Shown here: one piece after another, positions 26,317-58,850 of the stretch | Numbering within the stretch: the stretch's first letter is position 1 | How the letters are laid out: each line of letters opens with the position of its first letter | Assembly: GCA_030829955.1 (NCBI GenBank) | Contig: JAURNY010000009.1 | Location: 1-64,000, forward strand | Origin: Gammaproteobacteria bacterium | Lineage (GTDB): Bacteria > Pseudomonadota > Gammaproteobacteria > Eutrophobiales > Eutrophobiaceae | Direction: 5' to 3' | Length of the DNA: 64,000 nt | Program-made: the position numbers and the translations under genes | The notes under the pieces: generated by a model | Database searches by the model: none | The model's input: only the letters and a program-made list of their open reading frames with translations | Told to the model about the DNA's origin: nothing

Positions 26317-27867
26317 ATGGTTCCACAAAAAAAAACAGCGCATATAGTACAAAATAGCTTTTTTCTTATTTGCCTGTTTATCTATTCAACAATACTTCTT
26401 GTATTTGTTTGCTCAAATCATTTATCTACCTTTGGTAACGATAGTATTAACTATCTAGTCATGGGCTTATATATGTCGCCCTGGCAAGAGGTAAATAAAG
26501 CTATTATTGAAATGTGGCCCTATCAGGAATATCCACCTTTGTATCCTGCCATACTGGCGATAACCGGCATTGTGCATGATTTACAATTCGCTCATGCAAT
26601 AACCGCAATATTTTTTGTTGTGTCACTTGTATTGTTTTACTTTTATCTGAGACAACAGAAACTTGAATGTTGGCCTGCATTTTTTATTGTTAGCATCTTT
26701 GCACTAAGCCCGGGGGCATGGATGAATAACATGGGCATACTTAGTGAAACTTTGTATTTATTAATCAGCTTTCTGTTTTTACTAACACTTGATCAACTAA
26801 AGCTGCCATCAAAGAAATACCTTATATACCTTGGAATACTATTAGGCTGCCTGATTCTAACCCGGACGATTGGTATCGCCATGTTATTAGCTTTTTCATT
26901 AATTGGTCTGGTGTTTTTTTTAAAAAAACAACAGAACCTCAAAACAATTGCAACACCGATAGTCATTGCGATAGTAATCAGCCTGTTATCAAAATTGTTT
27001 CTAAAGACCACTGTGCCTGATGATTATATTGATCAATTCAGTAAGCTACCCGGTTATGATTTTACCACTCAATATCAGGCAATTATTGATGGCTGGTTTA
27101 CCAGTTGGCAGTATTATTGGCTTGAAGATGCACATGTAGCATTTTATATCGCATGCGCACTGGGCATATTAACGATTGCCGGTTTATTACGCAGACTATT
27201 CGAACTCAAACCTGATGCTGTATATATCATTATATATCTGACTGTCATAATGATCTGGCCTCATCCTGGTCAGACATTTCGCTTTTTATTTCCTGTTATG
27301 CCTTTACTACTTTTTTTTGCTTATGATTTTATCAGTTATCTGGCTAATAATTATGCTAACAAACGTAGGGAATTGGTCCTGATACTATCCGTATTAATAG
27401 TTATAAATATGATTTTTCCGACACTGGTATTTACCTATTATCGTTATCAATCAGGTGTTGATACAGGCTTGAACAAATACAAAGAGTATTATTTGTTACC
27501 GGATTTGGCAGAAGCCAGACAAAAAGTAATGCAACAGCAAATGATGTTCGAGGATTTTAAACGTATTAAATTAACGACAAATCAGGATTCCGTCATTGCT
27601 TATTTTGAACCGGAATATGTAACTTATCTTGCTGAAAGAAGATCGGAATTTATCCGCTTTTATGAAACTGAAGCAGGCGAGGTGAAATTACATAAGCCTG
27701 ACAAGTCAGACTATGTATTATTGACAAGTTTGCACCCGCGTAAAACCAGGGAGCAAATAAATGGACTATATACTTATCAGTATTTTAAAGAATTTACTGA
27801 TATTGAATGGATTAGCAAATCAGATAACGAGACAAAGGTGTCTTATTTTCTAAAGGTTCTCAATTAA
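26317..27867 (+). CDS. GT-C type membrane glycosyltransferase (GT39/ArnT-like), first of three relatives
   Basis: A 516-residue protein with about ten membrane spans and a soluble C-terminal end. The first periplasmic loop has an acid residue in FGNDSINYLVM and an EYPPLYPAILAI motif, as in lipid-phosphate-sugar dependent transferases. It is similar in plan to proteins at 52001-53581 and 61128-62681, which share PPLYP and a similar spacing. It lies 35 bases after the UDP-xylose synthase gene, so a pentose donor is possible. Acceptor unknown. Its 3' end overlaps the facing glycosyltransferase gene by 18 bases. Confidence 0.72.
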   Translation: MVPQKKTAHIVQNSFFLICLFIYSTILLVFVCSNHLSTFGNDSINYLVMGLYMSPWQEVNKAIIEMWPYQEYPPLYPAILAITGIVHDLQFAHAITAIFFVVSLVLFYFYLRQQKLECWPAFFIVSIFALSPGAWMNNMGILSETLYLLISFLFLLTLDQLKLPSKKYLIYLGILLGCLILTRTIGIAMLLAFSLIGLVFFLKKQQNLKTIATPIVIAIVISLLSKLFLKTTVPDDYIDQFSKLPGYDFTTQYQAIIDGWFTSWQYYWLEDAHVAFYIACALGILTIAGLLRRLFELKPDAVYIIIYLTVIMIWPHPGQTFRFLFPVMPLLLFFAYDFISYLANNYANKRRELVLILSVLIVINMIFPTLVFTYYRYQSGVDTGLNKYKEYYLLPDLAEARQKVMQQQMMFEDFKRIKLTTNQDSVIAYFEPEYVTYLAERRSEFIRFYETEAGEVKLHKPDKSDYVLLTSLHPRKTREQINGLYTYQYFKEFTDIEWISKSDNETKVSYFLKVLN

Positions 27868-45909: not shown

Positions 45910-46770
45910 TTAATTATTTTTTTGATTTTGACTATAAATCAAAAACGTAATTTGTTCAGAAATCAGGCCTATTAAAAAAATAAGCACTGAACTTATTAAT
46001 AGCAACATTCCCATGTTGGTAAATCTTCCATAAAGCATATAAGTGAAACCATAATACGTTAATCCGGAAAAAAATAGGCCCAAAGAAACCGGACCGAATA
46101 TTTTCAATGGAGAGTATAAAGAAGTAATTCTGAAGATGATTAGTAAAAAACGAAATCCATCTTTAATAATTTTAATGTGACTGCTTCCCTTTCTTTCCGG
46201 ACACTTGATAGGCAGATATAAAATACTATAACCGCTTCTAAATAAAGCCATAGTGATGGTTGTTGGATAAGAAAAACCATTCGGTAACAAATATAAATAT
46301 TGTCTAAAAATTTCTGCTCTCACTGCCCTAAAGCCAGAGGTTAGATCCTTGATATGATGACCAGACATATAACTTGCCAGTCGATTGTAAGCATAATTAG
46401 CCACTAGTCGATGACTGCCTGCATGCGAATCTGTTGTACGTGCCCCAACCACCATATCGTATCCATCTCTGATTTTATCCAGCATTGGATTAATATATTC
46501 TGGTACATGTTGACCATCTGCATCCATAAACACAAATACGTCACCACAGGCATGTCGCGCACCTGTTTTGATTGCTGCGCCATTACCCATGGAATAAGGG
46601 TGAGAAATCACTTTTACATTATATTCATTACAAACATCTACAGTGTTATCGGTCGAGCCATCATTAACAACTAGTATTTCACTGTTCGGGCAAACACGCC
46701 TGATTTCAGGCAATAGAACTCGTAACGATTCTGATTCATTACATGCTGGTAAAATTACACTTATATTCAT
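45910..46770 (-). CDS. Polyprenyl-phosphate sugar synthase-like glycosyltransferase family 2
   Basis: A 286-residue GT2 of the dolichyl-phosphate-mannose synthase type. NISVILPACNESESLRVLLPEI, ILVVNDGSTDNTVDV and FVFMDADGQHVPEYI (DxD) are seen, then RTTDSHAGSHRLVANYAYNRLASYMSG and two membrane spans at the C-terminus (about residues 220-275). These enzymes make a lipid-phosphate-sugar, the donor for GT-C transferases. Its start overlaps the GT-C gene stop by ATGA, so a donor-plus-transferase pair is likely. Confidence 0.85.
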   Translation of the reverse strand: MNISVILPACNESESLRVLLPEIRRVCPNSEILVVNDGSTDNTVDVCNEYNVKVISHPYSMGNGAAIKTGARHACGDVFVFMDADGQHVPEYINPMLDKIRDGYDMVVGARTTDSHAGSHRLVANYAYNRLASYMSGHHIKDLTSGFRAVRAEIFRQYLYLLPNGFSYPTTITMALFRSGYSILYLPIKCPERKGSSHIKIIKDGFRFLLIIFRITSLYSPLKIFGPVSLGLFFSGLTYYGFTYMLYGRFTNMGMLLLISSVLIFLIGLISEQITFLIYSQNQKNN

Positions 46771-48635
46771 AATTCAGTAGATTCTATTTCTTTTAATAGC
46801 TTCTGATAGGTAAAGTAATATTTAGGATTATGTCTAATAATATCTTTAATGTCATTGCGCATTTTTTCCAATTCATCGCGGCTTTGAGTTTTATTAATAA
46901 TATTCAGTTGTAAACCGTACTTCTCGGCTGAATGACTGATAAGAATAGAACTTTTAATATGCTGTAATGAATTTTTATAATCCATGTAAACGTACTCAAT
47001 AATTGCCAGAAACTCCAATAAGTAACTTTTTATATGATTATAGTTTTTATTTTCCAATAATCTTTTCAGCAACAATTCAAGGTTTCTAATTGTATTATCA
47101 TCACATTTTCCTTGTAATGCTAACAACAGATAGTTATCCAACAAAGCAATTATACGCTGACCTTTTGCTTTCGAATATGCAGCTTCAGAAACAATGGCAC
47201 TCCACGCTTCACTATCTTCCAACTGTTTAATAAAACATTCTTGCAGCTTCAATATGTTTAATCTAGCAAATACACTATTTTCTTCCTGCTTATCAATCTG
47301 ATGATAGGTTTTTATTGCATTGTCTGTATCACCATTTCTTATATATTGTGTTGCAAGGTAGTTTAATGATCGTTCTGACTGCGGCTGAAACCTTACCCAC
47401 TCAATTGCCTGAATCAAGGGGCGCGCCCAATTGCCAGACTCAAGAAATAATACTGTTGTTATCCACAATAAATACATTGAAATTAAAAAAAGGGGGATTC
47501 TCTTTTCTGTAAAATAGTTATAATAATTTACAGTAATAACACCTGCCAATAATGCTATACCGATACTCGGCAAATAATTTCTATGCTCAAAGTATAATTC
47601 CAAATTGACGAAACTTGCCTCCAAACTATGCATGAAAAAAAACCACAAGATACCTAGACTAACGATAGGCAATTTCTTTCTTTTTTTAATTGCAAACACA
47701 AGTAGACCGATGAGTATAAACCAGCATAATATTGTTTTAGGTGGGGAGAAAAATGACGTGGAAACAACATAATCATCATGAAACAGTGAGAAAGAACCAT
47801 ATGTAGGCAATATCAGTAGTTTTAAATAATCAATTATCACCACAGGTTGGGTTAACAATCTTTGCCATAAATTAAAATCGCGAAATTGATAAGATACTGC
47901 AATGCCAGATAAATTACTCAACAAATATATAGCGAGCAAGGCCAATGGCATCGCCAACACAATCGCCGCCCATTTTCGGTTTTGATTTAATACATTATTT
48001 TTTGAAAACAATGTCACTTCTATAACAATGATTAAAAGCAATAATAAAATTCCATTTTCTTTGGAGAGTATTGCCATTAAACAACATGACCAAATAATAG
48101 CCGCAGCAATTATTGGATTACAAATATTACTTTTGACAAGCAAATCTTCTCTTAGTCTAAACCAGACCAGCAGACCAGCTAACGTAAATAATGTTGCAAG
48201 TTGTGTCATTCTTTGAACAGCGTACAACACTGTTGTAAGGTGTATTGGATGTAACATCCAGTAACTAACTACAGTTAATATAAATACATTTTTTTCAGCT
48301 AAATTAAAGTCAGAACGATTTATAATAATTTTGCTTATAAAAAATAATAACAAACCATTTAGGCAATGAATTAACAGATTTATGGCTTTAAATAATTGTG
48401 GATTATCTGGCCAGGAATTGTGCTGAACTGCAAAGCTAAGCATGGATAACGGTCGGCCGGTTGGTCCGGAAAAATTACCCAGAATAAAATTTAGCCATCC
48501 GCGATTTACCAAATCAGATAAACCGGAAAGGTTATAGAAGTCATCAAATATAAACGGACTATTGAGGGCGGGTGTATAAATGAAAATAGTAATAACAAAC
48601 ACTACAATCAATAATAGTTTTATTTTTATAGCCAT
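46767..48635 (-). CDS. GT-C membrane glycosyltransferase with C-terminal helical-repeat region, next to pilin
   Basis: A 622-residue protein. About ten to eleven membrane spans occupy residues 1-410, and the first loop has the acid pair D31-D32 in FIFDDFYNL, with RPLSMLSFAVQHN and FKAINLLIHCLNGLLL, a plan shared with TMTC/PMT-type transferases. Residues 420-622 are helical, TPR-like. Members next to pilA in other bacteria, such as TfpW, attach sugars to pilin; I suggest a similar role here from the position and the coupled lipid-sugar synthase. It is separated from pilA by a strong terminator, so the expression is independent. Confidence 0.68.
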   Translation of the reverse strand: MAIKIKLLLIVVFVITIFIYTPALNSPFIFDDFYNLSGLSDLVNRGWLNFILGNFSGPTGRPLSMLSFAVQHNSWPDNPQLFKAINLLIHCLNGLLLFFISKIIINRSDFNLAEKNVFILTVVSYWMLHPIHLTTVLYAVQRMTQLATLFTLAGLLVWFRLREDLLVKSNICNPIIAAAIIWSCCLMAILSKENGILLLLLIIVIEVTLFSKNNVLNQNRKWAAIVLAMPLALLAIYLLSNLSGIAVSYQFRDFNLWQRLLTQPVVIIDYLKLLILPTYGSFSLFHDDYVVSTSFFSPPKTILCWFILIGLLVFAIKKRKKLPIVSLGILWFFFMHSLEASFVNLELYFEHRNYLPSIGIALLAGVITVNYYNYFTEKRIPLFLISMYLLWITTVLFLESGNWARPLIQAIEWVRFQPQSERSLNYLATQYIRNGDTDNAIKTYHQIDKQEENSVFARLNILKLQECFIKQLEDSEAWSAIVSEAAYSKAKGQRIIALLDNYLLLALQGKCDDNTIRNLELLLKRLLENKNYNHIKSYLLEFLAIIEYVYMDYKNSLQHIKSSILISHSAEKYGLQLNIINKTQSRDELEKMRNDIKDIIRHNPKYYFTYQKLLKEIESTEL

Positions 48636-48667
48636 AAATTAATCATAATTTTTTTTATCTTAAGCAT

Positions 48668-48693
48668 AAAAAAAGGCCACTAAGGTGGCCTTT
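48668..48693 (-). terminator. Intrinsic terminator behind pilA
   Basis: Read on the minus strand: AAAGGCCAC, a CTTA loop, GTGGCCTTT and four more T. The stem is nine base pairs (48672-48680 with 48685-48693). It lies 25 bases after the pilin stop and ends the pilin message, keeping pilin levels apart from the genes downstream. Confidence 0.9.
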
Positions 48694-48717
48694 CCTAAAT
48701 TGAGAATTAACTCAATA

Positions 48718-49173
48718 TTATTTACATGCACCAGGCAGGTATTTAGCTTCAACGTTACCTGGATTGTTTGCATTAGTACCACATTCCCAGGTTTTACCAC
48801 CATCTTGTGATGAAAGTACATAAGTGCTGCCTTGAATATTCGGGTTAACACCAGTTGTACCCATAGTTGCTATAACTTCTACAACACCACCGTTTGCTGC
48901 GCCTGCGCCATCTTGTATCTCTACAGTTGAGACATATTTACCAGTAGTGGTACTACCAACTGCTGTCAGATTTGAAGGCCATACACCCTTATCTTGGTAG
49001 TATTCTGACAAACCGGTTTTGAAACCAGCAGCAAGGTTAACAGCTTCAGTCATTTGTGCACGAGCGGTGTAGTCCTGATAAGAAGGGATAGCAACCGCTG
49101 CAAGAATGCCAATAATCGCAACCACGATCATCAATTCGATAAGGGTAAAACCCTGTTGAATTTGTTTCTTCAC
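48718..49173 (-). CDS. pilA: Type IV pilin, first copy (PilA-like major pilin)
   Basis: A 151-residue prepilin. An eight-residue leader MKKQIQQG is cut before the N-methylated Phe; the mature start FTLIELMIVVAIIGILA carries Glu5 and the hydrophobic assembly helix. Two C-terminal cysteines (WECG and PGACK) form the D-loop. The start is GTG at 49173 with AGGAG just upstream. A sigma-54 promoter, a 5' hairpin and its own terminator make this a single-gene, strongly regulated unit, fitting a major pilin controlled by PilS-PilR, encoded at 55921-58850. Confidence 0.94.
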   Translation of the reverse strand: MKKQIQQGFTLIELMIVVAIIGILAAVAIPSYQDYTARAQMTEAVNLAAGFKTGLSEYYQDKGVWPSNLTAVGSTTTGKYVSTVEIQDGAGAANGGVVEVIATMGTTGVNPNIQGSTYVLSSQDGGKTWECGTNANNPGNVEAKYLPGACK

Positions 49174-49201
49174 AGTATTTCTCCTATGTGATCATTAATC
49201 T

Positions 49202-49227
49202 ATCAACAATTTTCGAAAATAATTGAT
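49202..49227. repeat. Inverted repeat in the pilA 5' untranslated region
   Basis: A 26-base near-palindrome centred on TTCGAA; 11 of 13 pairs match, with two mismatches. It lies between the predicted start site (about 49240) and the pilin ribosome site, so the mRNA would begin with a hairpin that may protect the message. Confidence 0.6.
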
Positions 49228-49251
49228 GTACTTATTGTACACTTAGAGATT

Positions 49252-49267
49252 AGCATAAAATGTGCCA
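49252..49267 (-). promoter_or_regulatory. Sigma-54 promoter of pilA
   Basis: On the minus strand: TGGCAC, five bases, ATGCT. The invariant GG and GC are 12 bases apart as required for RpoN. It is about 80 bases before the pilin start, as in other gammaproteobacteria where PilR activates it. Confidence 0.8.
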
Positions 49268-49439
49268 GCAATCTCTGTACAAAACACATTAATATTCTCG
49301 CACTACAAATATTTATCTTTTTTAAATTGTTGTTATTAATAATTATTTTTTTGATATGTCAAATATTGATATACCTGCTGATAATATATTTAATATTTCA
49401 ATTCCCCAAAGTGTCTTAATGTGACGTAAACTGTCACTT

Positions 49440-51463
49440 TCAGATAATGCCAGCATTCCTAAACATCGTCTGCAAAGGCCTAAGTTCACTAGCAAAATGT
49501 TTCCATCTGCCTGATGAATGTTTAAACAAACCCTGTCGTATTTGCACATTACTGGCTGTTTTTACTGCACGCGAATTGTCCTGAAACTCTAGGCATGATG
49601 CGTCCCAGTCAAGATTCAAATAGCTAAACATGCGACGACTTTCATTCTCAATATCATTGATCAAATTTTCATATGAGACTTCCAGGATTTCATCCTGAAA
49701 TAATTTTATCCAATGCTGCATTAAACGATGATAATCAAGATAGTAATGACCAAGTTCATCAAGGTCATATGCAAACTTATATCCCTGAGCAAAATAATTG
49801 GTATAAATTGAAACACATGTGTCGAGTGGAAAACGCTGACAATGAATAACCTTCGCATTAGGAAAAAGGATCTTTATCAATCCAATTCTTAAAAAATTGC
49901 CTGGCAATTTATCCGTAACACGGATCTCATCCGTAGTAGAACGACATATCGTCTTCAAATATGCGTCCGTAATCTTGCTTAAATTTACTGTATTTTTTTT
50001 TATGTTCTGTTTCAAATCAGCATCTACAGAACATTTAAAATATGTTTCTTCCAGTTCCGGTAGCGCGGTTAATTCTCCTGCACCATAGACAAGCCTGTGA
50101 CATGAGACAATTTGTTCAATCAGAGTTGTGCCGGATCGAGGCATACCAACAATAAAGACAGGCAATTCAGAATCAGAAACTAAAAATGAATTATCTCTAA
50201 AAAACTCTTCCGGATAATAATCAATAATACTATCTATATAATTCGAGTTTAATTCCTTCTCATATTCAATCGACCTTCTTATTATTGTGTTACCATTGGT
50301 AAATTGTTGAAAAGCCTTTTCATAGCTTTTGTTTTTTAACAAGCAGTTCGCATATGCAAAATATAGATGAGCTTTATCCTTATCATTTATACAATTATTG
50401 ATATAAGTCTCAAGGGCGGCTGGGTCCAGACCTGATGTTTCATTTACAGAGATGTAATGCAATGTTTCGGCATGTTCTGGGCATTGTTCCAACACCTTTT
50501 GGTAATATGCCAATGCTTTTTCTGTTTCGCCAAGATCTTGCCATGCAATCCCGGCGTTCTTTAGCGCATCCAGAAAATCGGGTTTAAGAGACAGGGCTTT
50601 TTCATAATTTTTGATAGCATCACTATGTCGATCAAGATCGAGTAATACATTTGCCTTGTTATTAAATGCCTCATAATAATTACTATCAATATTTATTGCC
50701 TTGTCAAAATTCTCTATTGCTTCGTCATATTGATGATTGTCAAAGAGCAAATTACCCAGATTATTATAGGCTTCCCTGAAGTTTGAATCGTATTCTATGA
50801 CTTGATTAAAGCAGTTTTTTGCTTGTTGAAAATGCCCCTGAATTTTATAAACAAGGCCCATGTTATTGATTGCAGTAGTATTAGCGGGATCAATTATTAA
50901 TACTGTATCGATAATATCGCGAATATTTTCAAATTGATTTGTTTCAATTAATACAGTGGTCAGGTTATTGCGCGCATCAATATAATCTGGCTTGATATCA
51001 ATTGCCTTTCTGAATGATTGTTCGGCTTGCTCAGGTTCCTGCATCCCAACATATAGGATCCCCATATTATTAAACGCTTCGGCGTAATCAGGTTTAATAT
51101 TCAACGCTTGATGAAAGTTGCCTATCGCCTCACCATACTGCCCAACATCTTTGCATACCAAACCAAGATTGTTATAAAAATCTGCACGATGATTATTAGA
51201 CCTGATTGCCTTCTGTATAAGTATTTTTGCCGAATCGAAATGTTGAGTCTGATACTCAATCAACCCCAAAAGATGTAAGGCATCAGCATGTTCAGGCACA
51301 GAATCCAGAATCGTAAGATAAAGCTTTTTTGCATCATCAAATTGATTACTGCGATGCAGATTTAATGCATGCTGTAGTTGGGAACTAATTAACTCAGAGA
51401 GTTTATCAAAATTTTTTTTTTAGTTTTGTTTGAAAACAGTTTTTTAAACAATCTGTTTATCAT
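49440..51463 (-). CDS. TPR-sulfotransferase, start separated from the main frame by an A10 tract (frameshift or programmed slippage)
   Basis: The continuous frame (49440-51299 and upstream to the tract) encodes about 12 TPR units, then a sulfotransferase domain: 5'-phosphosulfate loop FIVGMPRSGTTLIEQI and a 3' segment HCQRFPLDTCVSIYTNY. No standard ATG starts this frame, although TPR sequence (LHRSNQFDDAKKLYLTIL) continues upstream of 51299. The only good start is ATG 51463, three bases after the second pilin stop. Reading from it, the frame is lost in an A10 run (51412-51421); one extra A restores MINRLFKKLFSN fused to the TPRs. It could be an assembly error, phase variation or transcriptional slippage. 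Enzymes of this type transfer sulfate from PAPS; the acceptor is unknown. Confidence 0.8.
51412..51421 (-). repeat. A10 homopolymer tract in the 5' end of the TPR-sulfotransferase gene
   Basis: Ten consecutive A on the coding strand (T on the plus strand), starting 42 bases after the ATG at 51463. With ten A the product stops after about 25 codons. Eleven A, or eight, give the full protein. Runs of this length are known to cause RNA polymerase slippage and replication slippage. Confidence 0.85.
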
Positions 51464-51466
51464 GAA

Positions 51467-51922
51467 TTATCTACATGCCGGAGGCAGAAATTTATTCTCT
51501 ATATCTGTTGTAGCTGCAGCCAAGCCGTTATTACCACAGTCCCATGTCAACCCGCCATCCTGAGTAGACAACGCATACAACCCGCCACTTATAGAACCGC
51601 TAACATTTGTATTTGCAAATGTTGAAGTTATAACAAGATCACCGGCAACTCCATTGCCAACAGTTATCGCGGTGTTATTCACATATGTTCCAGCCAAAGT
51701 CGTGCCAACAGCAGTCAAATTATGCGGCCATACTCCACTATTTTGATAATAATCAGACAAGCCCGTCTTAAATGCCGATGTGATAGAGATTGCCTCACTA
51801 ACCTGTGCCCTTGTTTGGTAATCAGTATAAGCAGGAATTGCAATCATTGCCAAAATACCGATGATCGCGACGACAATCATCAATTCCATCAATGTAAAAC
51901 CTTTTTCAATATAGAAGCGCAT
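51467..51922 (-). CDS. Type IV pilin, second copy
   Basis: A 151-residue prepilin related to the first pilin across its whole length: leader MRFYIEKG, then FTLMELMIVVAIIGILA with Glu5, FKTGLSDYYQNSGVWPHNLTAVGT and a closing cysteine pair (WDCG, PPACR). The start is ATG 51922 with only a weak ribosome site. No sigma-54 match is seen in the 77 bases before it, so it is probably expressed differently from pilA. It is followed after three bases by the start of the TPR-sulfotransferase gene, without a terminator. It may be a minor or alternative pilin. Confidence 0.92.
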   Translation of the reverse strand: MRFYIEKGFTLMELMIVVAIIGILAMIAIPAYTDYQTRAQVSEAISITSAFKTGLSDYYQNSGVWPHNLTAVGTTLAGTYVNNTAITVGNGVAGDLVITSTFANTNVSGSISGGLYALSTQDGGLTWDCGNNGLAAATTDIENKFLPPACR

Positions 51923-52000
51923 AATTCAAATCCCACTTAACCAATCAAATCCACCTACTGTTTGCTTACTAATTTTACCGTTCCAGTCCAGATGATATAC

Positions 52001-53581
52001 CTATTTTTGTTTTTCTGCTAAATAAGCTATGGCTGGTTTGTTAACATCATCACTTAAATATTTAGGGCGATATACATATTTATCCTTATTTTTAATGCGG
52101 TCCATCGGATAGAAAGCAGGATATTTTTCTTCAATATCAGAAAAATTGAATGAAATAATAAAATTACACAGATCAGTAATCCTGAAAAATTCGTCATCAG
52201 TAGCTGCAGCGTCAGGTAACACACCACTGATACGTTTGCTATGCAACATTATCAAGGGCGATTGAATACCTAATACACATTCATTTGCCGGTATGTGTAA
52301 TTTAATCTCGCGTAAAAATTCCAGCGTGTATTTTTGCTTCTCCAAATTATGAATTGCAAAATGTCTGTCTTTAGATAAAACCCATTCTCTATTTGTACTA
52401 TATTTTTCCAGCGCTGTGCCATCCAGATAGTTTTGCTTACCGGCAATTTCTATCATTGCAGGTAACAAAAGGCATAAAATAACTATAAAATACAGGTAAA
52501 ATAATTTTCCATTTGAAAAGAAATGATTCGATATTTTCTGAACTGCAATTAAATTATAAAAAAAATACAACGGCATGAGTGGATAAATAAACCTGGACAC
52601 ATAATGGATATCATCATAAGGCCATAAGATAATCACTGAAATAAATAACAATGTATAAATCGAGTCGATTTTCATTTCTATCAACCTTATACATAAGGCA
52701 TACATAAAAAGTATTATCAACGGAATATATATCAGGTAAGTCAGATAGCTAATACTTTCCAGTCTAAAAATACCAAATTGCCATACAAAGGCCTGAAATA
52801 ATATTTCGAATCTGTCAGACAGAATATAAAGATAGTCGTCCATATGGACCTGTCCAAAATATTGAACAAACTCTGCTGGATAACTTCGCGTATTATTTAT
52901 TGATGTAAATAGATTAATCAACAAAGGCGACAAGGCGACAAGAATAAGAAACAAAAAATTTTCCGGTTTTCTATAAAGAACTTCAAAAGCATAGGCTATT
53001 AATAATGTGACTCCTATCGCTTTACTTAAGACACTCAAGGCAACCAGAAGGGAAATCAGCAACCATTGCTGAAAATTTATTTCACTTTTTGAAATCATGA
53101 AAAAAACACAATAAACAAGCAAAATATATAAGAATTCACTCCACAACTCGTAAATAAAGATATGCGTGGATGGCAATAAAACTAAAATGAACAGCGTCAA
53201 TATCGAATGAAGTCTTGTTTGCTGATTACGCCTAAGCCAGAAATAAATAGCTATCAGTGACAAATTGAAAAAAATTACTGTAAATAAACTCGCCAGATAA
53301 AAACTATCCGAATCAACGCCAAACAGCCCTAGCAATAACGGATACAAAGGTGGAAAACGATTATGCTGCAATAAGAAATCAAAGACAGGTAGTTGTGCGG
53401 CATACCAGGGAGAATATATTTCAGCCAACATTAAAAAAATTGCATCATCCGAAAGAAAACCAACGGCTTCATTGTGCCCACATAATGTAATGATATAAAC
53501 AGAAACGCTAATCGTTAAAAAAAGAAAAAATAAAAATACATATTGACTATTTATTTGCTTCTCTTTCATGAAATTTAACAA
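52001..53581 (-). CDS. GT-C type membrane glycosyltransferase, second of three relatives
   Basis: A 526-residue protein with about ten membrane spans and a soluble C-terminal part of about 130 residues. The first loop has FLSDDAIFLMLAEIYSPW and FPPLYPLLLGLFG, matching the proteins at 26317 and 61128 in plan and in the PPLYP motif. It probably transfers a sugar from a lipid phosphate on the periplasmic side. It is upstream of the second pilin by 78 bases. An ATG four codons later is an equally possible start. Confidence 0.72.
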   Translation of the reverse strand: MLNFMKEKQINSQYVFLFFLFLTISVSVYIITLCGHNEAVGFLSDDAIFLMLAEIYSPWYAAQLPVFDFLLQHNRFPPLYPLLLGLFGVDSDSFYLASLFTVIFFNLSLIAIYFWLRRNQQTRLHSILTLFILVLLPSTHIFIYELWSEFLYILLVYCVFFMISKSEINFQQWLLISLLVALSVLSKAIGVTLLIAYAFEVLYRKPENFLFLILVALSPLLINLFTSINNTRSYPAEFVQYFGQVHMDDYLYILSDRFEILFQAFVWQFGIFRLESISYLTYLIYIPLIILFMYALCIRLIEMKIDSIYTLLFISVIILWPYDDIHYVSRFIYPLMPLYFFYNLIAVQKISNHFFSNGKLFYLYFIVILCLLLPAMIEIAGKQNYLDGTALEKYSTNREWVLSKDRHFAIHNLEKQKYTLEFLREIKLHIPANECVLGIQSPLIMLHSKRISGVLPDAAATDDEFFRITDLCNFIISFNFSDIEEKYPAFYPMDRIKNKDKYVYRPKYLSDDVNKPAIAYLAEKQK

Positions 53582-53620
53582 GTTATTATCTATTCATAAA
53601 TCAGAGCATGATATATATTG

Positions 53621-53938
53621 TTATTTTTTACCGCCTAATAACTTCAACAAGTCATTTGTTAATTTATTCACAAATTCCTCATTATACTCCCTGTCTTTTA
53701 AAGCCCACATAAATGTATTGCCAATCTTGGCTCTGGCATAGAAACCGGGAGCATTATCCTTTTTATATTGAATTGCCCTGTTGTGAATATTCGTTAGCAC
53801 CTTATCGAGTTTAATTTTATTCTTCTTGTTTGGAATACTATGCTCTGCATCATTTGGAAAGCGCTCGATAAACTCTTCGGCCAATGATAGTGAAAATTCA
53901 TCCAATTTTTTATTATTTTTCCAGAAGAAAATATTCAT
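53621..53938 (-). CDS. Small protein of unknown function (105 residues)
   Basis: No family recognised. The protein is soluble, charged and mostly helical in appearance: MNIFFWKNNKKLDEFSL at the start, a middle part rich in Lys and Asn, then APGFYARAKIGNTFMWAL and a helical end DLLKLLGGKK. It lies between two GT-C genes, 3 bases after the upstream gene stop, which suggests it is translated with it. It may be an accessory factor of the membrane transferase; this is only positional inference. Confidence 0.6.
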   Translation of the reverse strand: MNIFFWKNNKKLDEFSLSLAEEFIERFPNDAEHSIPNKKNKIKLDKVLTNIHNRAIQYKKDNAPGFYARAKIGNTFMWALKDREYNEEFVNKLTNDLLKLLGGKK

Positions 53939-53941
53939 ATC

Positions 53942-55888
53942 TTAATTGCCCGTTAATATTTTTTTTGCCGGGTTATCTGAAACATTCCATACATTTACAG
54001 ACATATTAAAATAGTTTTTTGCCATTTCATGGTCTCTCTTTAGCTCATAATATAGTCCTGAATAATAGAACAACCTTGCTTTATCTTCTTTTAATAGTGC
54101 CTGGTCAATTTTATCAAAGGCTTCATCTAATAATAGCTTGAGCAATGTTAAATCAGGCTTGTCGTCATTCAATATTGAATCAATTAATTCGAGTTTTCCG
54201 GAAAAAAGATAACATACTTTACTCGTTTCATTATTAATATATGAACCCTTATCATTTGTTTTGTATAAATTTATAAAAAATCGACAGTACTTATTCAACA
54301 CGATTTGCTTGTGCATCTTTTCCCAGGCATCTTCAGGTTCAACGTTTGATAATATCTGCTCCAGATAATTTACTGACTCTTCTTCCATTGACACTCTTTT
54401 ACTATGTCCAGCATTTGACTTATCAACCTTGCTTACCAAACCATTATCTATAACACCGTAATTATGAGGTAATGTATAAACGTAATATATTGGACGATCT
54501 GTATTGTCCAAGAAGTGTTTTGTTCTTCTGTTTTGCTCTCTGGCAGGCATTGTTAAGGGTAAAATATACCGATTAGACAAAATTAAACCCTTGTTGTGAT
54601 AGATAGTAACGTCTTGCCTATGACCAAGCACCGAATGCACATAGACCAATGGCCCCAGATCCATATCTCCATGTGTAAAAAGAACCGCCCCTTGTTCAAT
54701 ATTATTTAAAACAGCATACGCATAGTCCATTGCCCATGTATCATTAGCACGATAATTTGCTAATACTGATTGGGGAAATACGGAAACAAAAAGAATACAT
54801 AAAGTAAATATCTGGATATATCTCTTTTTAATATATGAATTCAGAAATTTAACTACGCCAGTAAGACCCGCAATTACCCAGAAAGCATACGCACAATAAG
54901 ATAACAACGGATAAACCCTGAAAACATTCTTGTCCCAGAGCTGGTAATCAAAACTAAGTAATAATATTAACAATAAAGAGTTACACAAAAATAAGGTGGT
55001 AATCGCAAAAGCAATATTTGTTTTAAATAAAGACCATTGAATGATAAAACCTAAAGCGCCCAGCATAAATCCAACATATCCATATTGCTGGATTAATTGA
55101 CTAATAAAAAAATAAACAAAATAAAGCTTATCCAGCAAGCTAGCAGTCTGACTATGATCCTGGCCGGCATAACCTTCTCTTGTAATAAAAAACCAGATTT
55201 CACTAAAACTTTCCAACGCCCCGTAAAAACTTATATAGGGATCATTATTACTATTTACTACCATCCATATGTAAGGTGATAATCCCATAATGATTCCAAA
55301 CAATGGCATTAATGAGACAAATTGCTTTCTTTCATGCCAAATCAGGATTAATAGTGCCGGTGTAGACAATACAATAAGCGGCCAATGATTCGCCAGCGCA
55401 ACCCCATACAGAAAAGCAAAAAGGAATAGTTTCTTAGGATGATCAATATGATTCATTGCCATAAAAAACAACATAAAGAACAATGCCACATTTAGAGTAT
55501 AAACCTCTGCAATAATAGCCTGCGACCAGAACATAGGTGATATGGAAATCATCAGGGCTGCTGTTGCTGATAAAAATCGTGACCGTGTTAATTGAAAGAT
55601 TATTGCTCCAATCACACCTATGCTGACTGTAGCAAATAAAGCACTAAGCAGATGTACTCTGAAAGCAATGGTTCCGAATGGTAGATAGGTAAACAGGTGC
55701 CCCAATAATGTATAAACAGGATAACCAGGGGGATGTGCAACCCCATTATAGTAAGAAGCAAGGACAAACAAAGCATCATCTTCCAATACAACACTTCGCG
55801 GCATACTCCAAAGATATAATAGGAAAGAAACCAATAGAACAGTTATGCTCTCCTTACTTATTAATCTATAAAGAGGGATTGATGTCAT
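53942..55888 (-). CDS. DUF2723-type GT-C membrane protein with C-terminal helical tail
   Basis: A 648-residue protein. RSVVLEDDALFVLASYYNGVAHPPGYPVYTLLGHLF is the DUF2723 (protein O-mannosyltransferase-like) start with acidic pair and HPPGYP. About ten spans end near residue 370, followed by a periplasmic region and a TPR-like tail (FYYSGLYYELKRDHEMAKNYF). It is likely a lipid-sugar dependent transferase. It lies 32 bases after pilR on the same strand, in the pilus region, and may be read with pilSR. Confidence 0.78.
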   Translation of the reverse strand: MTSIPLYRLISKESITVLLVSFLLYLWSMPRSVVLEDDALFVLASYYNGVAHPPGYPVYTLLGHLFTYLPFGTIAFRVHLLSALFATVSIGVIGAIIFQLTRSRFLSATAALMISISPMFWSQAIIAEVYTLNVALFFMLFFMAMNHIDHPKKLFLFAFLYGVALANHWPLIVLSTPALLILIWHERKQFVSLMPLFGIIMGLSPYIWMVVNSNNDPYISFYGALESFSEIWFFITREGYAGQDHSQTASLLDKLYFVYFFISQLIQQYGYVGFMLGALGFIIQWSLFKTNIAFAITTLFLCNSLLLILLLSFDYQLWDKNVFRVYPLLSYCAYAFWVIAGLTGVVKFLNSYIKKRYIQIFTLCILFVSVFPQSVLANYRANDTWAMDYAYAVLNNIEQGAVLFTHGDMDLGPLVYVHSVLGHRQDVTIYHNKGLILSNRYILPLTMPAREQNRRTKHFLDNTDRPIYYVYTLPHNYGVIDNGLVSKVDKSNAGHSKRVSMEEESVNYLEQILSNVEPEDAWEKMHKQIVLNKYCRFFINLYKTNDKGSYINNETSKVCYLFSGKLELIDSILNDDKPDLTLLKLLLDEAFDKIDQALLKEDKARLFYYSGLYYELKRDHEMAKNYFNMSVNVWNVSDNPAKKILTGN

Positions 55889-55920
55889 TTTTTTATAGAT
55901 GAAGTTCGATTAAGAAATAA

Positions 55921-57234
55921 CTATTCGATGTTTAGTTTTTCCAGTCGGTATCGTAATGCCCGAAAGCTAATACCTAGAATTTTTGCTGCTGCCGTTTTAT
56001 TCCAGCGGGTCTTTTCCAATGCTTCTATGATTTTTTGCTTTTCAATATCATCAAGCAATGTATTCAAGTCGTCAGCATCATTTATATTATTAAGAGCACA
56101 ATTGTCTACTATTCCTATATCTTGCTCGGTAATTAAATTGTCTGTGCAGAGCGCTATTGCTCTTTCAAGAATATTCTCAAGTTCTCTTATATTTCCAGGG
56201 TAAGTATATTCAATAAGTGCATCAAGTGCCGATTGAGATAATGCGGGTCTTGATGTAAAACCATTACTCGCCACCAGTTTATCCAGAATATGTTCGACTA
56301 AAAGCGGAATGTCATCCTGACGTTCACGTAATGGTGGAATATGTATATTAATAACATTAATTCTGAATAATAAATCTTGTCTGAAAAGCCCCTGTTTAAC
56401 TCGCTCAGTTAAATTGAAATTTGTCGCACTTAATATACGAACATTGACAGGAATCTCTTTTTGAGCACCAACAGGACGGATAACTTTCTCCTGTATTGCT
56501 CTTAATAATTTTACCTGCATAGACAGCGACAGCTCTGCCACTTCATCAAGAAATAATGTCCCGCCATTTGCCGCCTGAAATAAACCCTCTTTGTCAGAAA
56601 TAGCACCAGTAAAACTACCTTTTTTATGCCCAAAGAATTCACTTTCCATTAGTTCATGAGGAATTGCACCGCAGTTAATGGCGATGATAGGCTGATCTGA
56701 TCGAGGACCATTTTCGTGGATTAATCTGGCAACCAGTTCTTTTCCTGAACCTGACTCACCACTGATATAAATGGGGGCCTGACTACGCGCCACTTTTTCA
56801 ATCATTGTTTTCAGTTTATGAACAGATTGACTATCACCGATCAACTTACTCTTTATAAGAGTATTACTTTTAACAGTCTTAATTGCGTCTTCAACAATAT
56901 TTCGCAATGCATGTAAATCGACCGGTTTTGTTAAAAAATCAAATGCACCATTTTTCAAAGCCTGTATCGCACTATCCATACTCCCATGAGCAGTAATAAC
57001 TGCAACCGGAAGACCGGCATCATGAGATTGAATTTCACTGACAAAATCTACCCCATCCCCATCGGATAATTTCATATCAGTCAAACATAAATTAAATTTA
57101 TTATCTTTAAGTAATTTTCTTGCTGAAGATAAATCTTCAGCACACACACAATCAATCCCCATCCGTTGCAAGGTAATATTCAATAATTCACGAATATCCG
57201 GTTCATCATCAATGATTAGCACAAGCGCTGACAT
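55921..57234 (-). CDS. pilR: Sigma-54-dependent response regulator PilR
   Basis: A 437-residue NtrC-type activator. The receiver has D10-E11 and phosphorylation site D53 (LTDMKLSDGDG). The AAA+ domain has Walker A GESGSGKELVARLIHENG, the sigma-54 contact loop KKGSFTGA (a Ser in place of the usual Ala of GAFTGA) and LFLDEVAELSLSMQVKLLRAIQE. A Fis-type HTH, NKTAAAKILGISFRALRYRLEKL, ends the protein. It is coupled to pilS by 2 bases and probably drives the sigma-54 pilA promoter at 49252. Confidence 0.94.
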   Translation of the reverse strand: MSALVLIIDDEPDIRELLNITLQRMGIDCVCAEDLSSARKLLKDNKFNLCLTDMKLSDGDGVDFVSEIQSHDAGLPVAVITAHGSMDSAIQALKNGAFDFLTKPVDLHALRNIVEDAIKTVKSNTLIKSKLIGDSQSVHKLKTMIEKVARSQAPIYISGESGSGKELVARLIHENGPRSDQPIIAINCGAIPHELMESEFFGHKKGSFTGAISDKEGLFQAANGGTLFLDEVAELSLSMQVKLLRAIQEKVIRPVGAQKEIPVNVRILSATNFNLTERVKQGLFRQDLLFRINVINIHIPPLRERQDDIPLLVEHILDKLVASNGFTSRPALSQSALDALIEYTYPGNIRELENILERAIALCTDNLITEQDIGIVDNCALNNINDADDLNTLLDDIEKQKIIEALEKTRWNKTAAAKILGISFRALRYRLEKLNIE

Positions 57235-57236
57235 AG

Positions 57237-58850
57237 TTAATAGATACTCTTTTTCTCTTTATGCATGAAATAAATTCTAAAGGTAGTGCCTTTTTCATCG
57301 GATGACAAAACAGTAAGTGATGCATGGTTGGCATCACATATTTCTTTTGCAAGATAAAGCCCGAGACCCGTTCCTTTTTGTTCAGTGGTAAAAAATGGTT
57401 CGAACAGTTGTTCTATTATGATTGGTGACATTCCTTTACCATTATCAATAACATCAACATATGCTCGTTCTGATTCCGAATCAATCCCTGTCGCCAACGT
57501 AAACAGCTTATCTCCCTCACTATATCTCCTAGCATTATCGCATAGATTATTAAGTACCTGATGCAATTGTGTGTCATCGAATTTTACTTCAAGCAATTCT
57601 TCATGCTTTTTAAATTCAATAGTTCTATTACCAACGCCATAATTATTTTCAAAGCCGATTATAAAGCCATCAAGCCAATCATTTAGATTTAACATTCTGG
57701 GCAAAGGTGGCTCACGTCGGCTAATACTTAGGACATTTTCAATTATTGTATTCACTCTTAATGAATGGTCATTAATAATTTCTGTTAAACGTTTATCTTC
57801 ACTGCCCAGATTGGGGGATTCACTTATTAACTGTCCGGCGTGATTGATTGCTCCCAATGGATTTCTGATCTCATGCGCAATACTCGCTGCCAAACGACCT
57901 AGAGAGGCCAATTTCAGTTGTTGTGCACGCTGACGTAATGAAGCCGTATCTTCAAGAAATACCAAAACCTGGAAACTATTACCATAGTCCAATTTGAAGA
58001 ATGCGACAGATAATTCAGGATAATTTTCGCTACCAGCAATCTCAATATTTGCATTACCTTGCCCTGAGAGCCATTGTTGTATTGGTGTAATTAATTTAGC
58101 TGATATTTGTGACTCCAGCACATCTTTAGTAAATTGGGATTTAAATATTAACTTCTTCGCCGACTCATTTATTAACACTGGCTTGAGATTGTCATTTAAA
58201 ACCAGTATGCCGGATTGCATGGCTCTTACAATCTGTTTATTTAATTCTGCTAAATCTAAAAGTTCTTTTGCTCTTTGCTCTGCAAGTTCTTCAGAAGCCT
58301 GCGCTCTTGACGCTAGAAAATTACCTATAATGGCAGTAACAAAAAATGTCGCTCCTAAAATTCCAGCGTGAATGTAATTCACATCGCGAAAGGAAACAAA
58401 AAATTGAATGTAAAGCTCATGGGTAAGGACAGCTAGCGTTGCGATAGCCGCAAAGAGAATAGAAATTTTACCTGCACGTAAAATACTACCGCCAGCAACG
58501 GCTATAACAAGTAACATACCAAAACCGCTGCTCAAACCATTACTTGCATACATAAGCAAACTCAACATCACAATATCGATTAATGCATGAAACGCAATTT
58601 GAAGATTTAGGCGTGGATATTTTAAATTGATAAATACGGCAAAAATAACAGATGTAATTAAATAAAAATGGCTAGTAACGGAAAATAGACGGCTATAAAG
58701 AATACCTAATGGATTAGGTAATTGACCAATATAAATTAATACAACAAACAAACCAGAGAGCAGAATTCGATATATATTAAAATATTGTAAAGCGGCCCAG
58801 CTTCTTCTCTGCGCAGAATTTTCGGGATATTGCTTTATATCGTTTAGCAT
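57237..58850 (-). CDS. pilS: Sensor histidine kinase PilS
   Basis: A 537-residue kinase with six membrane spans (residues 25-190), a PAS-like segment (ILVLNDNLKPVLINESAKKLI), the H-box LGRLAASIAHEIRNPLGAINHAGQLI and the ATPase boxes LCDNARRYSEGD (N-box), DNGKGM, and GTGLGLYLAKEICDAN. In relatives PilS senses pilin in the membrane and phosphorylates PilR. It is divergent from sucC. Confidence 0.93.
   Translation of the reverse strand: MLNDIKQYPENSAQRRSWAALQYFNIYRILLSGLFVVLIYIGQLPNPLGILYSRLFSVTSHFYLITSVIFAVFINLKYPRLNLQIAFHALIDIVMLSLLMYASNGLSSGFGMLLVIAVAGGSILRAGKISILFAAIATLAVLTHELYIQFFVSFRDVNYIHAGILGATFFVTAIIGNFLASRAQASEELAEQRAKELLDLAELNKQIVRAMQSGILVLNDNLKPVLINESAKKLIFKSQFTKDVLESQISAKLITPIQQWLSGQGNANIEIAGSENYPELSVAFFKLDYGNSFQVLVFLEDTASLRQRAQQLKLASLGRLAASIAHEIRNPLGAINHAGQLISESPNLGSEDKRLTEIINDHSLRVNTIIENVLSISRREPPLPRMLNLNDWLDGFIIGFENNYGVGNRTIEFKKHEELLEVKFDDTQLHQVLNNLCDNARRYSEGDKLFTLATGIDSESERAYVDVIDNGKGMSPIIIEQLFEPFFTTEQKGTGLGLYLAKEICDANHASLTVLSSDEKGTTFRIYFMHKEKKSIY

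Follow-up and report, generated by a model that had tools for sequence, protein, structure and literature searches.

The window analysed here, a stretch of 64,000 nucleotides from the draft genome of an uncultured gammaproteobacterium (32 contigs, 1.885 Mb, completeness rating 100%), carries on its reverse strand a long open frame of 659 codons with no stop (49440..51419). This frame codes for a TPR array and a Sulfotransfer_3 domain, and its putative start codon lies one base out of frame on the other side of a run of ten A's. The locus thus raises the question of whether the gene has been recently lost, is switched on and off, or still yields its full-length protein from an out-of-frame allele.

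The TPR-sulfotransferase gene lies directly behind a type IV pilin gene (51467..51922, reverse strand; Pilin PF00114 and N_methyl PF07963), whose TAA stop (51469-51467) is followed by exactly three bases and then by an ATG (51463-51461). An earlier, sequence-only reading had held this ATG to be the only good start, and both the coordinates and the N-termini of the syntenic TPR proteins of two relatives (genomes G068 and G072) bear this out. These proteins, each in one continuous frame, begin MIWQFIKKALPIF (G068) and MISQIIKKTLALF (G072), resembling MINRLFKKLF here, and share with it the N-terminus MI..(F/I)(I)KK (MIWQFIKK in G068 and MISQIIKK in G072 versus MINRLFKK). In the long frame, a TAA immediately before and overlapping the tract (51420..51422) bars any start further upstream, and the first ATG, GTG or TTG is a GTG at 51299. 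The stretch between the tract and this codon (51300..51411, reverse strand), already described as TPR-like, contains the first TPR and its preceding linker, as judged from profile matches (TPR_16 at 6e-7 and TPR_2 at 7e-7 for positions 51180-51419) and from homologues, which cover it at 30-40% identity and begin upstream of the first TPR. A genuine start within the long frame, named beforehand as what would overturn the proposal, was looked for and rejected, as none precedes GTG 51299, this codon has no evident SD sequence, and the homologues start further upstream. Because the first TPR precedes GTG 51299 and the syntenic N-termini match, we take 51463 to be the true start of the gene. Similarly, because syntenic proteins and homologues span both sides of the tract, the parts on either side of it most likely form one gene. 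A peptide from the first TPR such as LSELISSQLQHALNLHR would be obtainable only from a frame-restored product or from an earlier start. Annotators should be aware that an automatic start call at GTG 51299 would lose the first TPR and conceal the frame break.

The two frames meet at the A10 tract (51412..51421, T10 on the forward strand; nucleotides 43-52 of the gene). With ten A's, translation from ATG 51463 gives MINRLFKKLFSNKTKKKILINSLS*, a product of 24 residues ending at a TAA (51391-51389; short frame 51389..51463, reverse strand). Relative to the frame of the ATG, the long frame is shifted by -1, which equals the addition of one base, and the one-base offset previously noted is thus read directly from the frames and the tract. 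When the run length was changed in silico, 11 A's gave one continuous protein of 674 aa, as had been claimed; however, 8 A's restored the frame equally (673 aa), and the claim is corrected to this extent. Runs of 9, 10 and 12 A's gave only 18, 24 and 19 aa, respectively. By the limits of the two frames, the change of frame must fall within 51392-51419, that is, in 28 bases of which eight belong to the tract. With ten A's in the DNA, a full-length product would require slippage by RNA or DNA polymerase or by the ribosome. A/T runs of at least 10 are scarce in this genome, with nine in 1.885 Mb against about 50 expected under a first-order Markov model derived from the window (approximately fivefold fewer), and the chance that a random interval of 30 bases overlaps such a run is approximately 2e-4. 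Given that there are only nine such runs, the placement of the tract at the frame junction is more than chance. The run has the length of a poly(A) slippage site (at least nine A's) at a point where two frames meet and one extra A joins them; as in phase-variable loci, it also lies in the 5' part of the coding sequence and determines the reading frame by its length.

The protein encoded by the long frame combines TPR repeats with a PF13469 (Sulfotransfer_3) domain scoring 137.7 bits, well above the curated cut-off of 27. PF13469 includes tyrosylprotein sulfotransferases. The long frame carries LPVFIVGMPRSGTTLIEQI, with a PRSGTT motif that is common to the homologues and that we take to be the PAPS-binding motif. 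It also contains a second run, of nine A's (49993..50001, reverse strand), which is read in frame. Approximately 4.2% of substitutions in the long frame would create a stop, and its intactness would become unlikely (P 0.05) past about 3.6% of neutral change. As a stop is expected at about 3-4% substitution without selection and all 659 codons are open, the gene would be either still expressed or recently broken. Its surroundings include, besides the pilin gene, genes for GT-C-like proteins and a TMEM260-like O-mannosyltransferase; from these neighbours we would guess that its function is the sulfation of the pilin or of its glycan. No Rfam match was obtained at the locus, and a promoter-like excess was looked for and not seen.

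By its ProS sequence, the genome matches gammaproteobacterial MAGs, Thiotrichaceae UBA973 among them, at no more than 73% identity. Comparison with relatives places the gene in a partly shared order. In G068 and G072, sucCD, pilS, pilR, the pilin gene, a gene for a GT-C-like membrane protein and the TPR gene are followed by a small ORF resembling that at 53621-53938 of the window. The latter encodes a protein of 105 aa with no confident Pfam match, conserved beside the TPR gene in both genomes at 33-37% identity. The syntenic TPR proteins contain no break and no long run at the place of the tract, and the out-of-frame state is, as far as these two genomes indicate, not conserved. A sulfotransferase domain was not found in them; their C-terminal halves appear glycosyltransferase-like on reading the sequence, with only TPR-type families among the Pfam matches listed. 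A search of the genome contigs for relatives of the TPR-sulfotransferase returned none and no close orthologue was found, the nearest homologues being approximately 40% identical. The region following pilS-pilR (46767-58850 of the window) varies between genomes. In G001, the only genome of the same genus examined, two TMEM260-like genes occupy this place, with neither pilin nor TPR-sulfotransferase after pilR.

A pattern search recovered 48 A/T runs of at least nine across the genome. Apart from the tract at 51412..51421, 28 of them lie in ORFs of at least 150 aa, and the reading frame continues through all 28; five of these are runs of 10-11 A's, located in cysG-, ttcA- and RNase E-like genes and in two others. 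No second obviously split gene was seen among the 48 runs or at five of the G/C runs of at least eight, and of the genes with long A/T runs, that for the TPR-sulfotransferase is alone in being obviously broken. An A11 lying 16 bases past the ATG of a ttcA-like gene (positions 1501-1511 of locus L028; G000:C21:22309-22319), the longest A run of this genome, is in frame and equally exposed to slippage. At 26317-26335 of the window, an A9 run lies 10 bases past the start of a predicted membrane protein gene; it is likewise in frame, and a one-base change in it would abolish that protein. As the five other genes with A10-A11 runs are in normal frame, an A10 alone does not imply a switch.

We asked which history the tract at 51412..51421 would fit. 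The reading that we favour, and to which we give about an even chance, is that of an out-of-frame but leaky allele at a slippery A10, from which full-length protein would be made via transcripts with one added A and whose frame could be restored by replication slippage. The gene would start at 51463 behind the pilin gene and encode a single TPR-sulfotransferase, the present allele being one A out of frame. The DNA template with ten A's would mainly yield the 24-residue peptide, whereas slippage of RNA polymerase on the tract would add one A in a minority of transcripts and give the full-length protein of approximately 674 aa. If replication slipped between 10 and 11 (or 8) A's, individual cells would differ in whether the gene is fully on or fully off. 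Slippage on the A10, its direction and its amount are extrapolated from other bacteria. Transcripts of E. coli and Buchnera show an exponential increase of one-base insertions with the length of A/T runs, and +1 is the dominant direction of slippage in homopolymer runs (PMC5574713). At the A11 run of C. rodentium tssM1, slippage of RNA polymerase restores the frame to about 20% (PMC4256274), and A10 runs in Shigella spa13 and in Buchnera mur genes are listed as slippage sites (PMC6260861). Counting against the proposal, the break is not shared by the syntenic TPR genes of G068 and G072, and slippage of E. coli RNA polymerase is reported to be greater on runs of T than on runs of A (PMC6260861). 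At the level of replication, the A8/A9 run of B. subtilis swrA switches at 1e-4 to 1e-5 (PMC2831843). The arrangement may have been selected, or it may be a recent leaky loss-of-function allele, and the tract may act as an expression switch.

Plain gene decay has to be taken seriously, since TPR-sulfotransferase genes are broken at other places in two relatives. In G021 (C3, locus L098), the gene is interrupted in its middle, at a non-repetitive site near a short A run and away from long runs, and in G007 (C44, locus L108) it is broken twice, with one break near the start at an A7 run. According to this explanation, the gene would have been inactivated in this lineage or strain when the tract slipped by one base, and its remainder would not yet have decayed; a one-base loss on this path would produce the same DNA. 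The gene appears dispensable, as G001 does without it, and the genome is small (1.9 Mb versus 2.2-4 Mb in most relatives). Moreover, profiles TIGR01070 and PF00488 gave no match for MutS1/MutS_V in the assembly despite its completeness rating, whereas MutS_V is present in 34 of the 40 genomes searched, including G001; MutL is present. If MutS were truly absent, changes in run length would be more frequent. Nevertheless, the assembly also gave no match to an ABC permease-like gene located beside mutS in several relatives. Loss of this stretch is thus indistinguishable from the absence of a contig, and the MutS result carries little weight; the 28 intact coding runs also argue against strong run instability. 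The open long frame, with its own A9 run and its PRSGTT motif preserved, speaks against decay, and a fully null allele is unlikely if the A10 leaks by transcription slippage. On balance, we regard an early pseudogene as unlikely, while keeping it as a serious alternative.

More doubtful is selected phase variation, in which the tract would be a contingency locus switching a pilus-linked sulfation on and off. The 5' position of the run, the neighbouring pilin gene and the glycosyltransferase-rich surroundings fit such a role, and poly(A)/(T) runs, for which a role as switches has been proposed, are enriched at gene 5' ends (PMC2831843). However, no other gene of this genome shows the same arrangement: neither the 48 A/T runs nor the five G/C runs examined reveal several phase-variable loci, and no set of long tracts exists in surface genes. 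Variation in the length of the tract was not seen in the single genome of the species compared. We consider speculative and rather improbable the corresponding biological proposal that slippage on the A run sets the dose of a sulfotransferase coupled to the pilin and was selected as an on/off or low-dose switch through which the pilus or its glycan is sulfated. Our literature search found no papers on a phase-variable pilin sulfotransferase. Were it true, sulfation of the surface would be one more modification that bacteria turn on and off through slippage in simple sequences, and a gene that looks broken at the DNA level could still yield protein.

We hold it to be somewhat less probable than selected switching that the true genome has 11 A's and that the gene is an ordinary intact one misread in the consensus or assembly. 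The assembly is a draft in 32 contigs, errors occur in homopolymers, and a single one-base error would be the simplest change of all. Against this, the 28 other coding runs of at least nine, five of them of 10-11 A's, are in frame, and none of the window genes with runs of 8-9 bases is broken. A systematic or generic homopolymer error is unlikely on these grounds, which leaves one confined to this tract as the conceivable form.

Finally, the ribosome could join both frames into the same protein by a -1 shift on the A run, either programmed or as a minor side reaction, a route absent from the sequence-only reading. The zero frame AAA AAA AAA provides A_AA.A_AA.A, a known -1 heptamer, with the long frame in -1 and a weak hairpin past the tract (-4.4 kcal/mol, z -1.6; z -1.9 for a larger stretch). 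We judge this route very improbable: clear stimulators were not seen, with nothing SD-like in the 42 bases upstream and no strong structure downstream, conservation is lacking, and E. coli heptamers that have no stimulators exceed a background of approximately 0.05% by no more than 2- to 10-fold (PMC4066793).

Returning to the leaky allele at a slippery A10, one allele put out of frame at a homopolymer belongs to a well-known class, and switches based on A runs are known from Citrobacter tssM1 and Bacillus swrA. Sulfotransfer_3 (PF13469) TPR-sulfotransferases of gammaproteobacteria have the same architecture, in which the TPR array precedes a PRSGTT-bearing sulfotransferase domain; most of those of relatives are encoded in one frame, whereas here there are two, and the substrate is putative. 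A parallel in position is swrA of Bacillus subtilis (cited in PMC2831843), where the poly(A) also lies within the first tens of bases and a one-base change abolishes the protein; both alleles and their switching rates are known for swrA, in contrast to one allele from one genome here. Citrobacter rodentium tssM1 (PMC4256274) resembles our gene in being interrupted right past an A run and in being restored by one extra A; it has no ribosomal stimulators nearby, and no clear ones were seen here. It differs in that its run lies late in the gene, both products are functional and the 20% or so of restoration was measured, whereas here the run follows 42 bases after the start, the truncated product has 24 aa, and slippage is predicted from the sequence. 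In Blochmannia and Buchnera, whose genomes have more than 100 coding runs of at least nine and several such genes, against 28 and one here, poly(A) frameshifts are thought to be rescued by slippage (PMC3017870), likewise in an AT-rich setting and in genes that are intact except for one indel in a long run of A's.
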